A DNA stretch of 64,000 nt from Actinomycetota bacterium (GTDB lineage: Bacteria > Actinomycetota > Actinomycetes > Nanopelagicales > Nanopelagicaceae). Shown in pieces: positions 55,429 through 64,000 of the stretch. Each line of letters begins with the position of its first letter. The stretch's first letter is position 1. Location: NCBI GenBank assembly GCA_003569265.1, contig BGON01000003.1, positions 1-64,000 of the forward strand. The letters run 5' to 3'. A model generated the notes under the pieces. It was not told where the DNA came from, did not search any database, and saw only the letters and a list, made by a program, of their open reading frames with translations. Position numbers and translations under genes: made by a program.

Positions 55429-56091
55429 GTGAGCCAAGTGATCCGTATTCTCTCCAGAGAGAGCTCCTCGCTATCAGAGGCGGCCTATAGCCGTATTCGC
55501 TCAATGATTATTACTTTAGAACTAGAACCAGGATCACTCATTAGTGAGAGTGCGTTGATGAGTAACTTAAAGATGGGTCGCACACCCATTCGTGAAGCTC
55601 TGCGCTCGCTAGCAAATGAAAAACTTGTTGAGGTTTACCCGCGTCGTGGCATGTTTGTATCCCGTGTTGATGTTGCCAATCTTTCTCAGCTCTCAGAAAC
55701 CCGAGCAGTCCTTGAGATAAAAGCTGCAGAGCTTGCCGCAACACGTTCCACTGCTGCTGATCAAGAGATTACAAAGGCCCTGATCAAAGAAATTAAGGCC
55801 ATCAAAGGTGATTTGGATATGCCAACCTTGATTGGTCTTGATCAAAGAATTCACCATCACATCTACCAATGCACCCACAATGAATTTCTGGCAGCAGCTC
55901 TCGATAACTACTACGCCCACGCCTTGCGCATCTGGTTCTTAGCACTCGATCGTGTGGAGCATTTAGCTGATGCGATTATCGAACACCGAGCTTTATTAGA
56001 AGCAATTGCAAGTAATGATCCAAAAGCAGCATCAAAGGCAATGAAAGAACACGTTGAAGGTTTTGAATCAGAGATCCGTAAGTCTTTATAA
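55429..56091 (+). CDS. GntR-family regulator, FCD type
   Basis: A 220-residue regulator. The winged helix-turn-helix is at about 16-76 (AAYSRIRSMIITLELEPGSLISESAL, then MGRTPIREALRSLANEKLVEVYPRRGMFV). The FCD ligand domain is at about 84-210, with the Asp and His residues typical of metal-bound ligand sites (LDQRIHHHIYQ, then EHRALLEAIAS and KEHVEGF). It begins a rightward run of catabolic genes and should sense a pathway acid or amine. GTG start; the palindrome lies just upstream. Confidence 0.93.
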   Translation: MSQVIRILSRESSSLSEAAYSRIRSMIITLELEPGSLISESALMSNLKMGRTPIREALRSLANEKLVEVYPRRGMFVSRVDVANLSQLSETRAVLEIKAAELAATRSTAADQEITKALIKEIKAIKGDLDMPTLIGLDQRIHHHIYQCTHNEFLAAALDNYYAHALRIWFLALDRVEHLADAIIEHRALLEAIASNDPKAASKAMKEHVEGFESEIRKSL

Positions 56092-56120: not shown

Positions 56121-58640
56121 ATGAGTAAGTTACCTATAAAGGCAAAGTGCGTTGTTATCGGCGCTGGAATCGTCGGCAATGGCATGGTCTATCACCTTGC
56201 AAAATTAGGCTGGAAAGATATTGTCCAGATTGATAAAGGACCTCTTCCTAATCCTGGTGGCTCAACTGGCCACGCATCTAACTTCATCTTTCCTGTGGAC
56301 CACTCAAAAGAGATGACAGCAATTACTGCTGAAAGTATGCGCCAATACAAAGAGTTTGGAACCTTCACTGAGACTGGTGGAATTGAAGTTGCACGTTCAG
56401 AAGAGCGTATGCAAGAGCTGGCACGTCGTATTACATCTGCAAAGTCTTGGGGAATCGAAGGTGGTCGAATTCTTACGCCTGCAGAAGTAAAGGAGCTAGT
56501 GCCCTATATCGATGAAAGCATCATTTTAGGCGGGTATTACCAGCCAACTGTGGGCGTTGTTGACTCACTTCGCACAGGAACAATCATGCGCGAGAAAGCT
56601 CAAGAGATGGGCGCTGCGCAATCATTTGCAAACGTGGAAGTGCAAGATATTAAAGTTGAAAATGGAGTTGTAAAGGCAGTTGTTACAGACCAAGGAACAA
56701 TTGAAGCCGAATACGTAGTTATTGCTACTGGTTGCTGGTCTCCCAAGCTTGCTGCAATGGCTGGAGCACACATTCCATTAACACCTGCAGTTCACCAGAT
56801 GAAAGACATCGGACCAGTTCCATTCTTTAAAGACACTAAGGGTGATATTGAATGGCCAATCGTTCGTGACATGGATGTATTTATGTATGAACGCCAACAT
56901 GGAACTGGACTTGAAATTGGTTCATATGCTCACCGTCCAATTCTCTACACACCAGATGACATTCCTTCAAATGCAACTGCAGCTCTATCTCCTACAGAGT
57001 TTGCATTCACTCAAGCTGATTTTGATATCCAAGATGAGCATGCTTACGAGCTAATGCCATCTATTGTTGGAGATGAATCAGTTCGCGAAAAGTATGCATG
57101 TAACGGAATTTTGTCTTACACCCCAGATGGAATGCCAATTCTTGGCGAAACTCCAGAAGTCAAAAACTTGTGGTCAGTAGCTGCGGTGTGGATCAAGGAA
57201 GGTCCAGGAACTGCAAAGTCTGTGGCTGAATGGATGGTTCTTGGAGATTCACATATTGATCTTCACGCATCAAACATTGCTCGTTTCCATGAGCACCACA
57301 AGGAAGAAAAGCACATTAAGTCTCGTGTGACTGAATCATTTAACAAGACCTATGGAATCGTTCACCCACTTGAGCAGTACGAATCAAATCGTAAAGTGCG
57401 TTTGTCTCCATACTATGAGCGCGAAGCAGCACTTGGCGCAGTCTTCTATGAGACTGCTGGATGGGAGCGACCATTCTGGTATGAATCCAATAAGGATTTA
57501 GTTGCAAAGTTTGGCGACAAAGTTATGCCACGTACAGCTGAATGGGAATCACGTTGGTGGTCACCCATTATCAATGCAGAGCACTTACAAATGCGCGAGA
57601 GCGCGGGCATCGTAGATTTAACTGCCTTTACTTACTTTGATATCACTGGCCCATCAGCTCTAGCGGTTGTACAAAAGGCGGCTCTTCGTCAGATGGATGT
57701 TGCAATTGGCCGCGTTGTTTACACACCTGTACTTGGTCCCAATGGTGGATTTAAATCTGATTTAACAATCATGCGCCTTGATACCGATCACTTCCGCGTT
57801 GTTACTGGCGGTGCACACGGTATGGCAGATAAGAAGTGGTTTGCTGATCTATTACCAGCCGATGGCTCTGCAAAGATCAAAGACATAACTTCTGACTACA
57901 CCACCCTTGGTGTGTGGGGACCAAATGCCAGAAAGATTATTCAAGAAGTTACATCTGAAGATATGAGCCATGAATCATTCAAGTTCAGCACATGTCGGGA
58001 AATTGATATCAAGGGCGTAAAAGTTCTTGCATCTCGTATTTCATACGTTGGCGATCTTGGCTGGGAGTTCTACGTTCCTATGGCTGATGGTCCAGCCCTT
58101 TGGGATGCCCTCTGGGAAGCTGGAAAGAACCATGGATTAATTCCAGTTGGAATTGGTGTGTATGGAACTACTGGTCGACTAGAGAAGTGTTACCGCGCAT
58201 ACGGACCAGAGCTTGAAACTGAATACACCGTAGTTGAAGCTGGAATGCAATCACCAAAGCTTAAAGAAGCAGATTTCATTGGCAAAGATGCACATGTGAA
58301 GCACCGTGCTGAGAAGCCTGTTGCAATGCTGTGCACACTCTTTGTTGATGATCACAAATCTTCAAAAGGTGAAAAGCGCTACATGATGGGTAATGAACCG
58401 ATTCTTACATTAGATAAGAAGCCAATTACAGATGCACATGGGCGTCGTTCATATGTAACAAGTGCTGGTTCTGCTCCATCTTTAGGTAAGCACATCCTGA
58501 TGTCTTACCTTCCAACAGAGTTAGCTGTAGCTGGAAATAAGTTCCTGGTTGAGTATCTTGGTGAGCACTACCCATGTTCAGTCGCTGAAGTTGGCCCAAC
58601 ATCAGTATTTGATCCATCAAATGAACGGATCCTTGCATAA
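56121..58640 (+). CDS. Dimethylglycine/sarcosine dehydrogenase-like flavoprotein with GcvT domain
   Basis: An 839-residue fusion. The N-terminal DAO domain has VVIGAGIVGNGMVYHLAKLG (about 11-30). His51 in STGHASN fits the His that holds FAD covalently in dimethylglycine oxidases. The FAD-domain tail with TPDGMPILGETPE is near 335. The FAO_M linker follows (about 390-450). The GCV_T folate domain runs from about 470 (REAALGAVFYETAGWERPFWY) with SYVGDLGWEFYVP near 637, and the GCV_T_C domain is near 735-830. It should oxidise an N-methyl group of dimethylglycine or sarcosine and pass the C1 to tetrahydrofolate. EtfB overlaps its stop (TAATG), so electrons likely go to ETF, not O2. The exact N-methyl substrate is unknown. 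Confidence 0.9.
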   Translation: MSKLPIKAKCVVIGAGIVGNGMVYHLAKLGWKDIVQIDKGPLPNPGGSTGHASNFIFPVDHSKEMTAITAESMRQYKEFGTFTETGGIEVARSEERMQELARRITSAKSWGIEGGRILTPAEVKELVPYIDESIILGGYYQPTVGVVDSLRTGTIMREKAQEMGAAQSFANVEVQDIKVENGVVKAVVTDQGTIEAEYVVIATGCWSPKLAAMAGAHIPLTPAVHQMKDIGPVPFFKDTKGDIEWPIVRDMDVFMYERQHGTGLEIGSYAHRPILYTPDDIPSNATAALSPTEFAFTQADFDIQDEHAYELMPSIVGDESVREKYACNGILSYTPDGMPILGETPEVKNLWSVAAVWIKEGPGTAKSVAEWMVLGDSHIDLHASNIARFHEHHKEEKHIKSRVTESFNKTYGIVHPLEQYESNRKVRLSPYYEREAALGAVFYETAGWERPFWYESNKDLVAKFGDKVMPRTAEWESRWWSPIINAEHLQMRESAGIVDLTAFTYFDITGPSALAVVQKAALRQMDVAIGRVVYTPVLGPNGGFKSDLTIMRLDTDHFRVVTGGAHGMADKKWFADLLPADGSAKIKDITSDYTTLGVWGPNARKIIQEVTSEDMSHESFKFSTCREIDIKGVKVLASRISYVGDLGWEFYVPMADGPALWDALWEAGKNHGLIPVGIGVYGTTGRLEKCYRAYGPELETEYTVVEAGMQSPKLKEADFIGKDAHVKHRAEKPVAMLCTLFVDDHKSSKGEKRYMMGNEPILTLDKKPITDAHGRRSYVTSAGSAPSLGKHILMSYLPTELAVAGNKFLVEYLGEHYPCSVAEVGPTSVFDPSNERILA

Positions 58641-59395
58641 TGGACGTACTTGTCTGCCTAAAGCGCGTTCCACTAGCAGGTGGAACTTTGATTCTGACTC
58701 CAGATTCACGCGATATCGAAACTAAGCATTTAGGTTTTGGTATTAGCCCCCATGAGGAAAACGCAGTTGAAGCCGGAGTTCAACTCGTTGAACAGATGGG
58801 TGGAACTCTGACTCTGCTTACTCTTGGACCTTCTGATGCTGAAGAACAACTACGCTCACAGTTAGCTATTGGTGCAACTCGCGCCGTGCTGATTGAAACA
58901 GATGGACAGGAATGGGACCCACAGGGAACTGCTGCAGCACTAGTTGATGCAATTAATGCTGAAGAGACCAAGTTTGACTTAATCATTTTTGGTGCAGAAT
59001 CTGCTGATAGTGCGGGGTATCAAATCCATATTCGTGTGGCCCATGCACTCAATCGTCCGATTATCACTAACGTTAAATCAATGAAGATTGAAAATGGCGT
59101 TGCAGTATGTGATCGAGTAGTTGCTGCTGGACGTGAGCATTATGAAGTTGCTCTACCTGCCATTGTTACCGTGCGCGATGGATTAAATATTCCACGATAT
59201 CCGTCAGTTCCTGGACGTATGCAAGCGCGCAAGAAGCCAGTAGATATGAAAAAGGCTGAGGCACGAGTGCCTAAATTAGAGAAAGTTGTTTTAACTCTCG
59301 CACCTTCTAAATCAACCGGGGCAGAGATCTTGGGCAACGGCGCCGATGCTGTTCCTGCACTAGTGGATATCTTGAAAAAGATTGGAGCTTTCTAA
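58640..59395 (+). CDS. etfB: Electron transfer flavoprotein, beta subunit
   Basis: A 251-residue subunit with the adenine-nucleotide site. It shows MDVLVCLKRVP at the start, GISPHEENAVEAGVQLVEQMGG near 35-56 (family FixA/EtfB) and the EtfB signature VAAGREHYEVALPAIVTVRDGLNIPRYPSVPGRM near 157-190. It is translationally coupled to the flavoprotein before it and overlaps etfA (TAATG). Context shows that this pair serves the demethylating dehydrogenase, rather than only fatty acid oxidation. Confidence 0.94.
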   Translation: MDVLVCLKRVPLAGGTLILTPDSRDIETKHLGFGISPHEENAVEAGVQLVEQMGGTLTLLTLGPSDAEEQLRSQLAIGATRAVLIETDGQEWDPQGTAAALVDAINAEETKFDLIIFGAESADSAGYQIHIRVAHALNRPIITNVKSMKIENGVAVCDRVVAAGREHYEVALPAIVTVRDGLNIPRYPSVPGRMQARKKPVDMKKAEARVPKLEKVVLTLAPSKSTGAEILGNGADAVPALVDILKKIGAF

Positions 59396-60354
59396 TGATT
59401 CTTGTGCTCGTAGATCAAGATCGCGGTGAACTAGATCAACTCTCACTTCGTGCATTAACTGCGGCCCGTAAATTAGGCCAAGATGTTGAAGCTGTTGTCA
59501 TTGGCAAAGAAGGCTCAGCCCTTGCTGGAATCGTTGGTGAATATGGTGCCAAGGTGTTACACGTTGCATCTCATGCCAACATCACTGATTACACACCCAT
59601 GGCATCAGGGCGTGCACTCAAAGACCTAGTTGAAAAACTTAAGCCAGATGCAGTCCTTGCTGCTGGAAGTCCACGTGGTAATGAACAGTTAGCGCATTTA
59701 GCTGCTTTTCTAGATCTTCCAATGGCAGCAGAGTGTTCAGAGATCACTTTGGGTTCTCCTCACCATGTGCTTCGAGCACGCTGGGCAGGAAATCTGATTG
59801 AGTCTGCAAATGTTCACGCAGATATTTTGATTGCAACGGTTCTGGCGTTTTCAACTGAACCAGAATCTGCCAATGGCAGCGCAGCAACAGTTGTTGATTT
59901 CGAACCAGCCCTAGAACCACAGGATTACGCTGTAAAAGTATTGAGCCGTGATGCTGGTGAATCAAAGGGTGGCGTAACACTCAATGATGCCAAAGTTATT
60001 GTCTCTGGCGGACGTGGTGTTGGTGGTCCAGATGGATTCGGTCAGATTGAAGAGCTTGCAACGTTGTTAGGTGGCACTGTTGGGTGCTCACGTGTTGTAA
60101 CAAGCTCAGGCTGGCGTCCACACGCTGAGCAAGTGGGACAAACAGGAACAAAGGTTGCACCAGATCTTTATATCGCAGCTGGTATCTCAGGTGCGATGCA
60201 GCACATTGCAGGAATGAAAAACAGTAAAACAATCGTAGTTATTAATACAGATCCAGAGGCTCCAATTCTAGGCTATGCAGATTACGCAATTATCGGTGAC
60301 TTGCATCAAGTAATACCTGCGCTTACTAGTGCAATTCGCCAAGCCAAGGGATAA
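59395..60354 (+). CDS. etfA: Electron transfer flavoprotein, alpha subunit
   Basis: A 319-residue subunit with the FAD domain. The C-terminal signature is [25 protein letters not shown] near 203-227, then [43 protein letters not shown] near 232-274 and INTDPEAPI near 285, all typical of EtfA. It ends 2 bases before fhs. The partner EtfB is directly upstream. Quinone delivery would need an ETF:quinone oxidoreductase, which is not in this window. Confidence 0.95.
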
Positions 60355-60356
60355 AA

Positions 60357-62021
60357 ATGTCAGATATCGAAATCGCACAAGCTGCAACGATGAAGCCAGT
60401 CACCGAAATCGGTGCCAGCTTAGGGATTGATGCAGATAACTTAGAGGCTTATGGAAAGTACAAAGCCAAAGTCAATTTGAAATATCTGACATCTTTGCCT
60501 AAGCGGGAAAACTCAAAGCTGATTTTAGTAACTGCTATAAGCCCGACACCTGCAGGTGAAGGAAAGACAACAACAACTGTTGGTCTGGGTGACGCACTGC
60601 GACATATTGGTAAAAATGCAATGATTGCACTTCGTGAGCCATCTCTAGGTCCAGTTTTTGGAATGAAAGGTGGAGCTGCTGGTGGGGGCTATGCCCAGGT
60701 AGTTCCCATGGAAGATATCAATCTTCACTTCACCGGAGATTTCAACGCTATAGCACTTGCAAATAACTTACTTGCGGCCCTTTTAGATAACCACATCCAC
60801 CATGGAAATGAACTCAACATCGATGTTCGTCGCATTGTATGGAAGCGCGTTGTTGATATGAATGATCGTGCATTACGCGAAATCATTGCATCCCTTGGTG
60901 GTGTTGGTAATGGTTATCCACGCAGTGATGGTTTCGACATCGTTGTTGCCTCTGAAATTATGGCAATTTTCTGCCTTGCCACATCTATTGAAGATCTGAA
61001 AGAGAAGATTGGCAAAATTGTTGTTGCTTACACTAAGGACAAGAAGCCAGTTCTTGCAAGTGATCTAAAAGCTCAAGGTGCTATGACGGTAATCTTAAAA
61101 GATGCTTTCCAGCCAAACTTAGTTCAGACTCTTGAGAACACTCCAGCCTTTATTCACGGTGGGCCATTTGCCAATATCGCCCATGGTTGCAACTCTGTAG
61201 TAGCTACAACTTCTGCAATGAAGTTGGCAGATTATGTTGTTACAGAAGCTGGCTTTGGTGCAGATCTTGGAGCTGAAAAGTTCATTGATATTAAATGCCG
61301 CAAAACAGGTTTACGCCCATCTGCATGTGTATTAGTTGCAACCATTCGTGCGATTAAATACCACGGTGGCGCTGACCTAAAGACAATTACAGAGGAGAAC
61401 TTGTCGGCGTTAGAAGCTGGACTTGTAAACCTTGAGCGACATATCAACAACATCACCAAGGTTTATAACCTTCCCCTAGTTGTTTCTATCAATAACTTCA
61501 CAAGTGATACTAAGGCTGAAGTTGAACTACTTCGTACTCGAGTTGAAAAGCTTGGCGTGAAGATTGTGCTTGCAACTCACTGGGCTGATGGTGGTAAGGG
61601 TGCAGCTGATCTAGCACATGCTGTTGTTGAACTATGCGAGAAGCCACAAGCTATGACTTTTGTATATGAAGACAGCTCAACATTGTGGGAGAAAATCAAC
61701 GCAGTTGCCACAAAGATTTATGGCGCAAAAGATGTAACTGCTGATGCCAAGGTGCAGGCAAAGCTCAAGGAGTTTGAAGCATCTGGCTATGGAAACTTCC
61801 CAATTTGTGTGGCAAAAACTCAGTATTCCTTCTCAACTGATGCAGCTCTACGTGGTGCACCAAGTGGCCACACCATCAATGTTCGCGAAGTAAAGCTCTC
61901 AGCAGGTGCTGAATTCATCGTGATGATCTGCGGAGAAATCATGACAATGCCAGGGTTGCCTAAGGTGCCATCTGCAGAACGCATTGATTATGTAGATGGA
62001 AAGGTAGTTGGCCTTTTCTAA
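60357..62021 (+). CDS. fhs: Formate-tetrahydrofolate ligase
   Basis: A 554-residue enzyme linking formate, ATP and THF to 10-formyl-THF, reversible. The P-loop is [19 protein letters not shown] near 63-81, [23 protein letters not shown] is near 94-116, and [12 protein letters not shown] is near 328. The end [16 protein letters not shown] is the usual FTHFS close. Placed after the demethylase and ETF genes, it most likely runs toward formate and ATP, giving energy from methyl groups. It converges on the DUF1638 gene with a 32-base gap. Confidence 0.96.
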
Positions 62022-62053: not shown

Positions 62054-62638
62054 TTAGTTGCTAAGTAATTCCTTCACTTGCTGGGCTAGTTGACCATAAC
62101 CAACGTTTTGAATTTCTAGAGGTAAACCAATACTTGCAGCAGCTTGAGTAGCTAGCTCTTCTAACTCTTTACTCGGAACTTGGGCTAACCAGATAACCCG
62201 TGAATAGTTCTTAAAGTAGTCATCACGCAGTTCAGGCCGCTTATCTAAACCCAGCTCAACCATGACACTTCGGTGAAAGGATTTAGCTAGAAAATCAGTT
62301 AAGAAATATGTTCCAGCATCAGATTCCATGATCTCTTCTATCTTCTTTGCCCCTGCAAAAATGTCATAGCAATGGTTACCGCCTAAACGCTTCACACCGT
62401 GCTTTGTGATGACAGTATCGAGTGCGCCATAAGTTCCACAATCGGCATATGCCACAGCGCACTTCTGATGTTTATCTTTAATCTCAATGAGTAATGCATC
62501 TACTTCACCAGCAATCTTTTCTGGGCGGTTATGAAGCAGGGGTGGAAGGGGATAGATAGTGATATCAAGTGATTCTGTTGCTGCAATATCGGCGATATGG
62601 GTTGCAAGTGCCCCGCAGGCAACTACGCCAATGCTCAT
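62054..62638 (-). CDS. DUF1638 protein
   Basis: A 194-residue soluble protein of a family without a proven activity. MSIGVVACGALATHI opens, YPLPPLLHNRPEKI is near 28, YADCGTYGALD is near 64, and GNHCYDIFAG is near 86, with Cys/His residues that could bind metal. I recall DUF1638 genes as constant neighbours of corrinoid methyltransferases and RACo-like activators. The gene overlaps the next one by 4 bases, so the two are made together. Confidence 0.85.
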   Translation of the reverse strand: MSIGVVACGALATHIADIAATESLDITIYPLPPLLHNRPEKIAGEVDALLIEIKDKHQKCAVAYADCGTYGALDTVITKHGVKRLGGNHCYDIFAGAKKIEEIMESDAGTYFLTDFLAKSFHRSVMVELGLDKRPELRDDYFKNYSRVIWLAQVPSKELEELATQAAASIGLPLEIQNVGYGQLAQQVKELLSN

Positions 62639-64000
62639 GCAGGAAAAGCGAGACGTTGAACGAACTTATCGTTGAAATCTTCGCGATCAGATAATTCGAT
62701 GTAGTCAATCTCATCAAGTAGAGCTTGAGCGCCATTGCGCTCTTGGGCCGATAGTAAAACCATTTTGGCGCCTTCTCCAGCAACGTTACCTGCGGACATA
62801 ATGCGCATCACTGAAAGCTTTGGCACTAAGCCAATTTTGACCGCAGATGAAGGGGAGAGGTAAGAACCAAAAGAGCCAGCAAGTAGTACTTGCTGAATTT
62901 CAGATTCCTGCACACCAAACTCTTCTAACAAAAGCGCCCAACCTGTGGCAATAGCCGCCTTTGCAAATTGAAGTTCACGAACATCGCGCTGAGTTAAAAA
63001 GACGCAATCAGATAGATCACCCACTTCTTTGCTCCATGTTAGAACAAAGACGCGCTCACCTTCACGAGTGACTAAACGACTAGCTAGCTTTGGCGAAATA
63101 GTTAGCGCAGCCTCATCAGTAACAAACTTACCTGAGTGATCAAGTAAGCCCACTTCAACCAGAGATGCACATGCATCAACTAATCCGGAGCCGCAAATAC
63201 CAACTGCTGGAGCATCGTCAATAGTTCCAATTTCTAGTTCTCCATTAACAACCTTGATGGTTTCAATGGCACCAGATGCTGCTCTCACACCACATTTAAT
63301 ACTGGCAGCTTCAAAGGCCGGACCAGCAGGAGCAGCGGTTGCAAGAATCTTGTCGCCATCACCTAAAACAATTTCACAGTTTGTGCCAACATCGATAAAT
63401 AAGCGCAATCGCTTATCGCGATCCATTCCTGAGGCAAGGGCCCCTGCAATGATGTCTCCACCAACATATGCACCAAGTGAGGGCATGATCACTGCCTTTG
63501 CAAGTGGATGCACGGCAATGCCAATCTCTTTGACAGAAATGTTTGGATAACTAGCGCTAGCCATAATAAATGGGGCAACTCCCAGAGGTTCTGGATCAAT
63601 GCCAAGGAGAAGTTGCGTCATCGTGGCATTGCCAGCAATAGCTAATTCATAAACATGGTGGGGATTAACATCGGCTTCAACACAGACCTCTTGCGTCAGC
63701 TGATTAAGGGTTTCTTGAGCTAAACCGCTGAGTTTTGCCAGAGCATTAGGGTCAAGCATTGTTGCACTGATTCGTGTGATGACATCTGCGCCAAATGGCT
63801 GCTGCTTATTGAGCATTGATTTAACGGCCACTGGTGTTCCAGTATTGAGATCAAGCAAAGTTGCAACAACTGTTGTTGTTCCCAAGTCATAAGCAATTCC
63901 ATAGCGGAGATGTGTTGTGTCACCAGCTTCAATGCCTAGAAAATCTTGATCAGCAAAGACTGCAGTTACTTTGTAATTTGATGCACGCAAGATGCGGGGG
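62635..64000 (-). CDS. RACo-like ASKHA (DUF4445) corrinoid activator, 5' part outside window
   Basis: The C-terminal 455 residues are present; the frame is open to the window edge, so the Met at 63990 is internal. ASKHA ATPase motifs: YGIAYDLGTTTVVATLLD, ELAIAGNATMTQLLLGIDPEPLGVAPF, VGGDIIAGALASG, LFIDVGTNCEIVLGDGD, AVGICGSGLVDACASLVEVGLLD and LLAGSFGSYL. The usual N-terminal [2Fe-2S] domain would lie beyond base 64000. Such proteins use ATP to reduce an inactive Co(II) corrinoid protein. This predicts a corrinoid methyltransferase near by, outside the window. Confidence 0.92.
   Translation of the reverse strand, partial: PRILRASNYKVTAVFADQDFLGIEAGDTTHLRYGIAYDLGTTTVVATLLDLNTGTPVAVKSMLNKQQPFGADVITRISATMLDPNALAKLSGLAQETLNQLTQEVCVEADVNPHHVYELAIAGNATMTQLLLGIDPEPLGVAPFIMASASYPNISVKEIGIAVHPLAKAVIMPSLGAYVGGDIIAGALASGMDRDKRLRLFIDVGTNCEIVLGDGDKILATAAPAGPAFEAASIKCGVRAASGAIETIKVVNGELEIGTIDDAPAVGICGSGLVDACASLVEVGLLDHSGKFVTDEAALTISPKLASRLVTREGERVFVLTWSKEVGDLSDCVFLTQRDVRELQFAKAAIATGWALLLEEFGVQESEIQQVLLAGSFGSYLSPSSAVKIGLVPKLSVMRIMSAGNVAGEGAKMVLLSAQERNGAQALLDEIDYIELSDREDFNDKFVQRLAFPA

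Follow-up and report, generated by a model that had tools for sequence, protein, structure and literature searches.

We propose, with moderate confidence, that DUF1638 is a dedicated partner of the corrinoid activator RACo: it would carry a metal or iron-sulfur site, dock on the corrinoid protein and help to restore Co(I) in a demethylation locus. The gene that led to this proposal lies at the end of the window, a 64,000-nucleotide stretch of an actinobacterial contig (C3:1-64000) from a genome of 0.64 Mb that is about 42% complete. It adds a new member to a family already described, within a system of known kind, and the analysis of its partners and fusions sharpens the idea of what the family does. 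New here are the co-occurrence of DUF1638 with RACo in 119 of 123 genomes, the finding that RACo is not its universal neighbour, a set of near-invariant cysteines with a histidine, and natural fusions to signalling domains. A phenotype of DUF1638 has been on record since 2018, with no mechanism proposed for it; its candidate ligands, its two partner genes and the fusions make the question testable.

The DUF1638 gene (62054-62638, minus strand) encodes a 194-aa protein that scores 80.9 bits with PF07796, against a Pfam gathering cut-off of 27. It contains all four of Cys8, His36, Cys67 and Cys90, candidate metal or cluster ligands that form a residue set defined here and previously unpublished. 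Its ATG start and the TGA stop of the RACo gene (62635-64000, minus strand) share the sequence ATGA at 62635-62638, which bears out the 4-base overlap with a corrinoid activator described in an earlier note on this DNA. The same note called the two genes fused by overlap; they overlap only, and the loci examined contained no DUF1638-RACo fusion. Long actinobacterial open frames (up to 887 aa) that looked like candidate fusions proved to belong to distinct genes whose frames overlap in GC-rich DNA. The 4-base overlap is found in 19 of 57 RACo-DUF1638 pairs of relatives, and is therefore not strict; it also occurs in 8 of 41 pairs in which a corrinoid-protein gene precedes DUF1638. Among the best 80 of 587 confirmed matches, the nearest named relatives come from actinobacterial MAGs and one single-cell genome, and a relative in SCGC AAA044-N04 shares 92% identity with the window protein. 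The RACo-DUF1638 pair also occurs in a MAG titled Bifidobacterium breve (L108), with 50% identity to the window DUF1638; the label or binning of this MAG looks doubtful.

The RACo gene is cut by the window edge, and the next 22 kb of the contig (L002) were added to the analysis. The gene runs on to a probable ATC start at L002:8540 (about position 64539 of contig C3). Read from this ATC, the protein has Fer2 (2Fe-2S), RACo_linker, Raco_middle and RACo_C_ter (ASKHA) domains, all four above cut-offs (PF14574, PF17651, PF17650 and Fer2), as expected for a RACo/RamA-like activator. It shares these domains with AcsV, the activator of the corrinoid iron-sulfur protein, but reaches only 378.4 bits with the AcsV model (NF040756, curated cut-off 800), accompanies a small corrinoid protein and lies in an operon without a gene for the Fe-S subunit. 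With 105.1 bits against a curated 500 it also falls outside TIGR04270, the RamA of methylamine methyltransferases.

In order of transcription, the operon encodes an IclR regulator, a corrinoid protein (B12-binding_2 and B12-binding domains), MetV (PF12225), MetF, a methyl-THF:corrinoid methyltransferase, RACo and finally DUF1638. Divergent from IclR are genes for an MTTB methyltransferase, an aldehyde dehydrogenase, an ABC transporter that includes an OpuAC glycine betaine-binding protein, and a GMC oxidoreductase. The MTTB protein matches PF06253 (604.8 bits) and, with 253 bits against a curated 525, falls outside TIGR02369, the pyrrolysine trimethylamine methyltransferase MttB. Scores of 206 and 162 bits leave the corrinoid protein below the curated thresholds of the MtgC models NF047996 and NF047995 (370 and 310, respectively), and we suggest at most that it would work like MtgC. 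A second group, on the plus strand and convergent with DUF1638, is headed by a GntR/FCD regulator (55429-56091; PF00392, PF07729), followed by an FAD oxidoreductase with a GCV_T folate domain (56121-58640; PF01266, PF16350, PF01571, PF08669), the beta (58640-59395; PF01012) and alpha (59395-60354; PF00766, PF01012) subunits of an electron transfer flavoprotein, and a formate-tetrahydrofolate ligase (60357-62021; PF01268, 880.8 bits). The oxidoreductase is probably of the dimethylglycine/sarcosine dehydrogenase type, and the ligase would receive one-carbon units from methyl oxidation. The gene families, together with matching clusters in Azoarcus and Ruegeria, point to corrinoid-dependent demethylation, with glycine betaine as the most likely substrate. 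The aldehyde dehydrogenase gene (L002:13716-14996) keeps one frame to about L002:14990 and has its last part in another, a frame change that reflects sequencing error or decay.

A role of DUF1638 in corrinoid reactivation is not new, as it follows from Price et al. (2018) and from a 2025 paper on Ruegeria. In Phaeobacter inhibens, DUF1638 and DUF4445/RamA-like genes are needed alongside a methionine synthase of three parts; losing DUF1638 has the same effect as losing the RamA-like activator and is rescued by methionine, and the presence of the two genes is nearly identical across 158 alphaproteobacteria (PMC5764234). The part of that article available to us places DUF1638 in B12 reactivation with RamA/RACo, and contains no specific proposal or mechanism for it (PMC5764234). 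The P. inhibens genes PGA1_c13340 and PGA1_c15200, with the split methionine synthase, belong to the same Pfam family and have the same partner families as the window genes. The Phaeobacter DUF1638, however, serves methionine synthesis and follows a B12-domain gene, whereas that of the window overlaps RACo in a demethylation operon, and the phylogenetic profiles of the two families, nearly identical in the Phaeobacter study, are nested in ours (PMC5764234). In Ruegeria, DUF1638 (SPO2162, two locus numbers from the MtgC gene SPO2160) and RamA (SPO2041) are more abundant on N-osmolytes (available part of PMC12478193). The MtgBCD system of R. pomeroyi has an MTTB methyltransferase, a corrinoid protein, a pterin methyltransferase, MetF, RamA and DUF1638 in common with our locus. 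There RamA and DUF1638 lie at different loci, whereas the window actinobacterium has them in one operon with MTTB divergent, and MetV and IclR in this operon are a further difference (PMC12478193). In the accessible portions of two other articles, SMc04333 appears merely as a table entry (PMC12542648) and no DUF is mentioned (PMC10418091).

The relation between DUF1638 and RACo was examined in three genome samples. Of 296 genomes from the phylum of the window, 65 have DUF1638, 115 have RACo_C_ter and 64 have both (Fisher p about 1e-31). The class of Roseibium (172 genomes) gave 31, 36 and 30, respectively (p about 2e-26), and the phylum of an Anaerolineae locus (151 genomes, lists compared by eye) gave 27, 55 and 25. 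RACo is thus found in 119 of the 123 DUF1638 genomes among the 619 sampled, and it was also present in all 10 genomes of chosen DUF1638 loci. The four exceptions (G115, G432, G488, G537) all encode B12-binding_2 (corrinoid-cap) proteins. This is weak evidence when taken alone, because 9 of 14 control genomes carry such proteins too; in G432, G488 and G537, the B12-binding_2 gene lies upstream of DUF1638 at less than 2 kb (for G432 from hit coordinates only). The earlier note held that its idea would fall if DUF1638 were widespread in genomes devoid of corrinoid genes. Such a distribution was looked for and is not what we observed, since RACo co-occurs in 119 of 123 genomes and the exceptions have B12-binding_2 proteins. 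The relation is one-sided: the three samples, in the order given above, contain 51, 6 and 30 genomes that have RACo but lack DUF1638.

DUF1638 is enriched with RACo proteins that are not AcsV-like, AcsV-like being defined by a score of at least 600 bits: 59 of 64 genomes against 26 of the 51 RACo-bearing genomes that lack DUF1638 (p about 1e-6). Five DUF1638 genomes have an AcsV-like RACo only. Many activators outside the AcsV type therefore manage without DUF1638, as the 26 of 51 genomes indicate. We considered a mutual exclusion with AcsV-type RACo, in which DUF1638 would take the place of the Fe-S domain in the corrinoid iron-sulfur protein; the same counts make this a tendency only, and we therefore do not use it as a main argument.

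Gene neighbours were surveyed at 121 loci, of which 41 belong to the window's phylum, the window locus being one of them, and 80 are named loci. The latter are the best of 587 confirmed matches found with a window-type alignment, and group A is therefore over-represented. For the window's phylum, 40 stretches were taken from 38 of the 64 remaining genomes with DUF1638, selected partly for long frames and contig extent; many DUF1638 loci stop at contig edges. With directly upstream defined as less than 250 nt between domains on the same strand, the upstream gene encodes RACo in 56 of the 121 loci, a corrinoid protein in 40, MtvA in 1 and MTTB in 1, whereas 22 have none of these and one lies at a contig edge. 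Two arrangements stand out. The order MtgC, (MetV, MetF), MtvA, RACo, DUF1638 is that of the window's relatives and the main source of RACo adjacency, whereas MtgC, DUF1638, (MetV, MetF), MtvA, RACo is the order in proteobacteria, in some of the actinobacteria and in other groups. On pSymB of S. meliloti and pAZKH of Azoarcus, for example, genes for a corrinoid protein, DUF1638, MetV, MetF, a methyl-THF methyltransferase and an ASKHA protein follow one another as listed. The statistics that the earlier note had asked for thus replace its strict coupling to the activator by a lineage-specific one: outside the window's lineage, DUF1638 usually follows the corrinoid-protein gene. The helper role that it suggested around corrinoid activation agrees with the RACo co-occurrence and with the genetics in the available part of PMC5764234, but not in the sense that the activator is strictly the partner.

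Neither a RACo nor a corrinoid gene lies within 6 kb in 13 of 26 sampled loci of groups B/C, and RACo is present without a corrinoid gene within 6 kb in 16 of 105 loci of group A; these gaps are explained in part by contigs that end. In one Anaerolineae locus (L148), a gene of the homocysteine S-methyltransferase family lies directly upstream of DUF1638. A small gene annotated as virulence factor lies near or overlaps DUF1638, before MetV, in S. meliloti (L174:10919-11221) and Azoarcus (L175:8582-8917), and is possibly another part of the corrinoid system. At L185:2771-4816, a single open frame of 682 aa covers both MTTB and DUF1638, which in relatives are encoded by two neighbouring genes; found only once, this frame could stem from the loss of a stop codon.

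The conserved Cys and His residues mentioned in the earlier note are real. Cys8, His36, Cys67 and Cys90 are invariant in an alignment of 76 sequences (A3). Across 141 DUF1638 domains that include distant subfamilies, Cys8 is retained in 140, and Cys67 and Cys90 in 138 each, their three missing cases being alignment gaps; His36 is present in 131 of 131 stand-alone proteins. This Cys3-His set looks like a metal or cluster site. The AlphaFold2 model of DUF1638 is a confidently predicted alpha/beta structure (pLDDT 95, pTM 0.87). Strands 1, 2 and 3 of this model are followed at their ends by Cys8, His36 and Cys67, respectively, and a helix begins with Cys90; this topology suggests that the four side chains converge. 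Structure prediction left out 5 of the 80 named loci (L104, L108, L125, L134, L137). A profile search of the PDB returned nothing below E 0.17, and the fold search with the model gave no match at E of 0.001 or less. An Asp/Glu racemase-like or periplasmic-binding-protein-like two-lobed fold was checked: the best Foldseek match had E 1.5e-3, and the best VIA match had Z 8.9 with an rmsd of 5.9 over 157 residues, close to the range that the tool calls common. The VIA matches, mostly periplasmic binding proteins, LacI types and racemases, are generic. A 2-hydroxyacyl-CoA dehydratase-like fold is absent among the matches listed, which is no evidence against that fold.

DUF1638 is also found fused to signalling domains. 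Chloroflexota stretches were taken from 17 of 27 DUF1638 genomes, selected for long frames and variety, and further ones from the remaining matches of a later search in a 138-genome sample. Weak Pfam hits in small Chloroflexota genomes correspond to a genuine N-terminal DUF1638 domain of PAS-histidine kinases of about 600 aa; profile comparison of this N-terminus with stand-alone DUF1638 gave 97.7% probability and E 1.7e-12 over 188 columns. In two other loci DUF1638 precedes GAF-GGDEF (L160 by Pfam, L161 by its Pfam DUF1638 hit and sequence). All 10 members of the fusion-type set (8 kinase-type, those of L162 and L163 being broken genes, and 2 GGDEF-type) retain Cys8, Cys67 and Cys90 and lack His36. 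A cysteine of the same loop is present instead; it occupies the His column in both GGDEF types and lies two columns earlier in the 8 kinase types, which suggests a ligand swap from Cys3-His to Cys4. The kinase-type gene of L162 (2455-4173) is truncated and adjoins transposase-like ORFs.

The fusions keep a corrinoid-type neighbour and have no RACo nearby, a second point against strict coupling to the activator: RACo was found within 6 kb in none of the 10 fusion-type loci, whose stretches of 8.0-8.4 kb cover about 4 kb on either side. Both GGDEF-type genes follow a corrinoid protein and a URO-D methyltransferase (the URO-D of L161 by position and sequence), and L180, where a corrinoid protein, URO-D, DUF1638 and a GAF-PAS-histidine kinase are four separate genes, looks like the unfused form. 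Directly upstream of kinase-type DUF1638 is a gene of 194-207 aa whose family matches corrinoid proteins (92.7% probability, E 4e-7, 134 columns) and has lost the DxHxxG motif. Single members either stay under the Pfam cut-off for B12-binding or show no match to it (2 of 4), and this degenerate protein may no longer bind a corrinoid. An independent search for the family in the 138 genomes gave 12 matches, 11 of them directly upstream of kinase-type DUF1638.

Most of the kinase-type genes lie beside confirmed or probable reductive dehalogenase genes. Pfam confirmed PF13486 in 4 of 11 kinase loci (L154, L157, L162, L176), and four others (L156, L158, L159, L163) have ORFs beginning with SRRDFMK, which we take to be an RdhA-like motif, and are candidates by this motif only. 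L177 and L178 contain a TAT-type protein, for which the Pfam scan of L177 gave TAT and Fe-S matches but none to PF13486, and the 8.4 kb of L155 held no reductive dehalogenase. On viral contigs, none of 25 pattern matches was related to the kinase-type DUF1638 domain. Two-component systems beside rdhA are known from organohalide-respiring Chloroflexota, and in our loci the kinase N-terminus is of the DUF1638 type; those proteins act in signalling, whereas the window DUF1638 stands alone (available parts of PMC13390414, PMC4635342). Our literature search found no paper naming this rdhA-adjacent N-terminus as DUF1638, and no title, among those returned, joining reductive dehalogenase histidine kinases with cobalamin binding.

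Because of the natural fusions, a reading role is possible, the same contact with the corrinoid protein steering a kinase or a cyclase. We tentatively extend the proposal in this direction, although this wider form is doubtful. DUF1638 would read the state of the corrinoid protein, recognising the oxidised form for RACo in methyltransferase operons. In the Chloroflexota fusions, the corrinoid protein or its degenerate descendant encoded directly upstream would form a corrinoid-based sensor with the DUF1638 domain; the ligands would be Cys3-His in stand-alone forms and Cys4 in signalling forms. In Dehalococcoidia this sensor would control the neighbouring reductive dehalogenase genes, halogenated compounds perhaps reacting with the corrinoid, and would account for the missing signal input of the kinases there. 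If so, an input domain would be identified for kinases beside dehalogenase genes used in groundwater bioremediation, whose inducers and sensing are poorly understood.

For the window operon itself we favour the RACo partnership. The MTTB methyltransferase would hand a methyl group to the corrinoid protein, MtvA/MtgD would transfer it to tetrahydrofolate and MetV-MetF would oxidise it there, and the convergent genes would process dimethylglycine and supply one-carbon units to the formate-tetrahydrofolate ligase. Cob(I)alamin accidentally oxidised to Co(II) would be re-reduced by RACo with its 2Fe-2S domain and ASKHA ATPase. The setting shared by DUF1638 genes is a corrinoid protein or a relative of it, more than the activator, and we therefore place DUF1638 on the corrinoid protein. 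There, with a site formed by Cys8, His36, Cys67 and Cys90, it would dock so that RACo can act, either presenting the oxidised corrinoid or passing an electron; metal binding, docking and step of action are all inferred.

A pure electron relay, in which an Fe-S cluster of DUF1638 would take an electron from RACo's Fer2 domain and deliver it to Co(II) with no part in recognition, is unlikely. The Cys3-His pattern and the enrichment with non-AcsV-like RACo (59/64 against 26/51) fit it, and the target of AcsV is itself an Fe-S protein. However, 89 of the 91 RACo proteins whose N-terminus is nearly complete contain a 2Fe-2S motif themselves (the other two begin at a contig edge), RACo-type activators have been reported to work with the corrinoid protein alone, and the kinase fusions suggest a reading function. 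Somewhat less probable again is that DUF1638 is a chaperone inserting or holding cobalamin in the corrinoid protein rather than helping its re-reduction. The corrinoid-protein gene is indeed its most constant neighbour outside the window's lineage, and the methionine need of the published mutant, as given in the available part of PMC5764234, would look the same; nevertheless, it is with the activator that DUF1638 co-occurs in genomes (119/123), and fusions to kinases and GGDEF domains are hard to explain for a loading factor. We give little credit to a zinc-thiolate methyl-transfer enzyme whose Cys3/His site, like that of Cys3-zinc methyltransferases, would activate a thiol, for example homocysteine: the Cys3 pattern, the methionine phenotype and the L148 neighbour are compatible with it, but a homocysteine part is already included in the Phaeobacter synthase (available part of PMC5764234), the window operon has no methionine gene and signalling-domain fusions argue against an enzyme. 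That DUF1638 is an operon passenger with no direct part in corrinoid chemistry, as its variable operon order among lineages and the half of sampled group B/C loci with no corrinoid neighbour might suggest, is hardly credible given the published mutant phenotype (PMC5764234, in part) and its retention with RACo even when unlinked (about 46 kb apart in G327 and 177 kb in G459).

A minor observation concerns the RACo gene itself. No ATG, GTG or TTG precedes the 2Fe-2S domain in the window RACo, L075 and L076, and in L077, L078 and L080 these codons are found only farther inside the gene. In all six, an ATT or ATC lies a few bases past the upstream stop and is followed by a Ser codon; a conserved AUU/AUC start is possible. 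L079 and L081 have TTG and ATG, respectively. Within the window's phylum, RACo_C_ter matches of four genomes (G094, G116, G202, G275) contain an in-frame TAG, which could reflect pyrrolysine use or chance read-through at gene ends.
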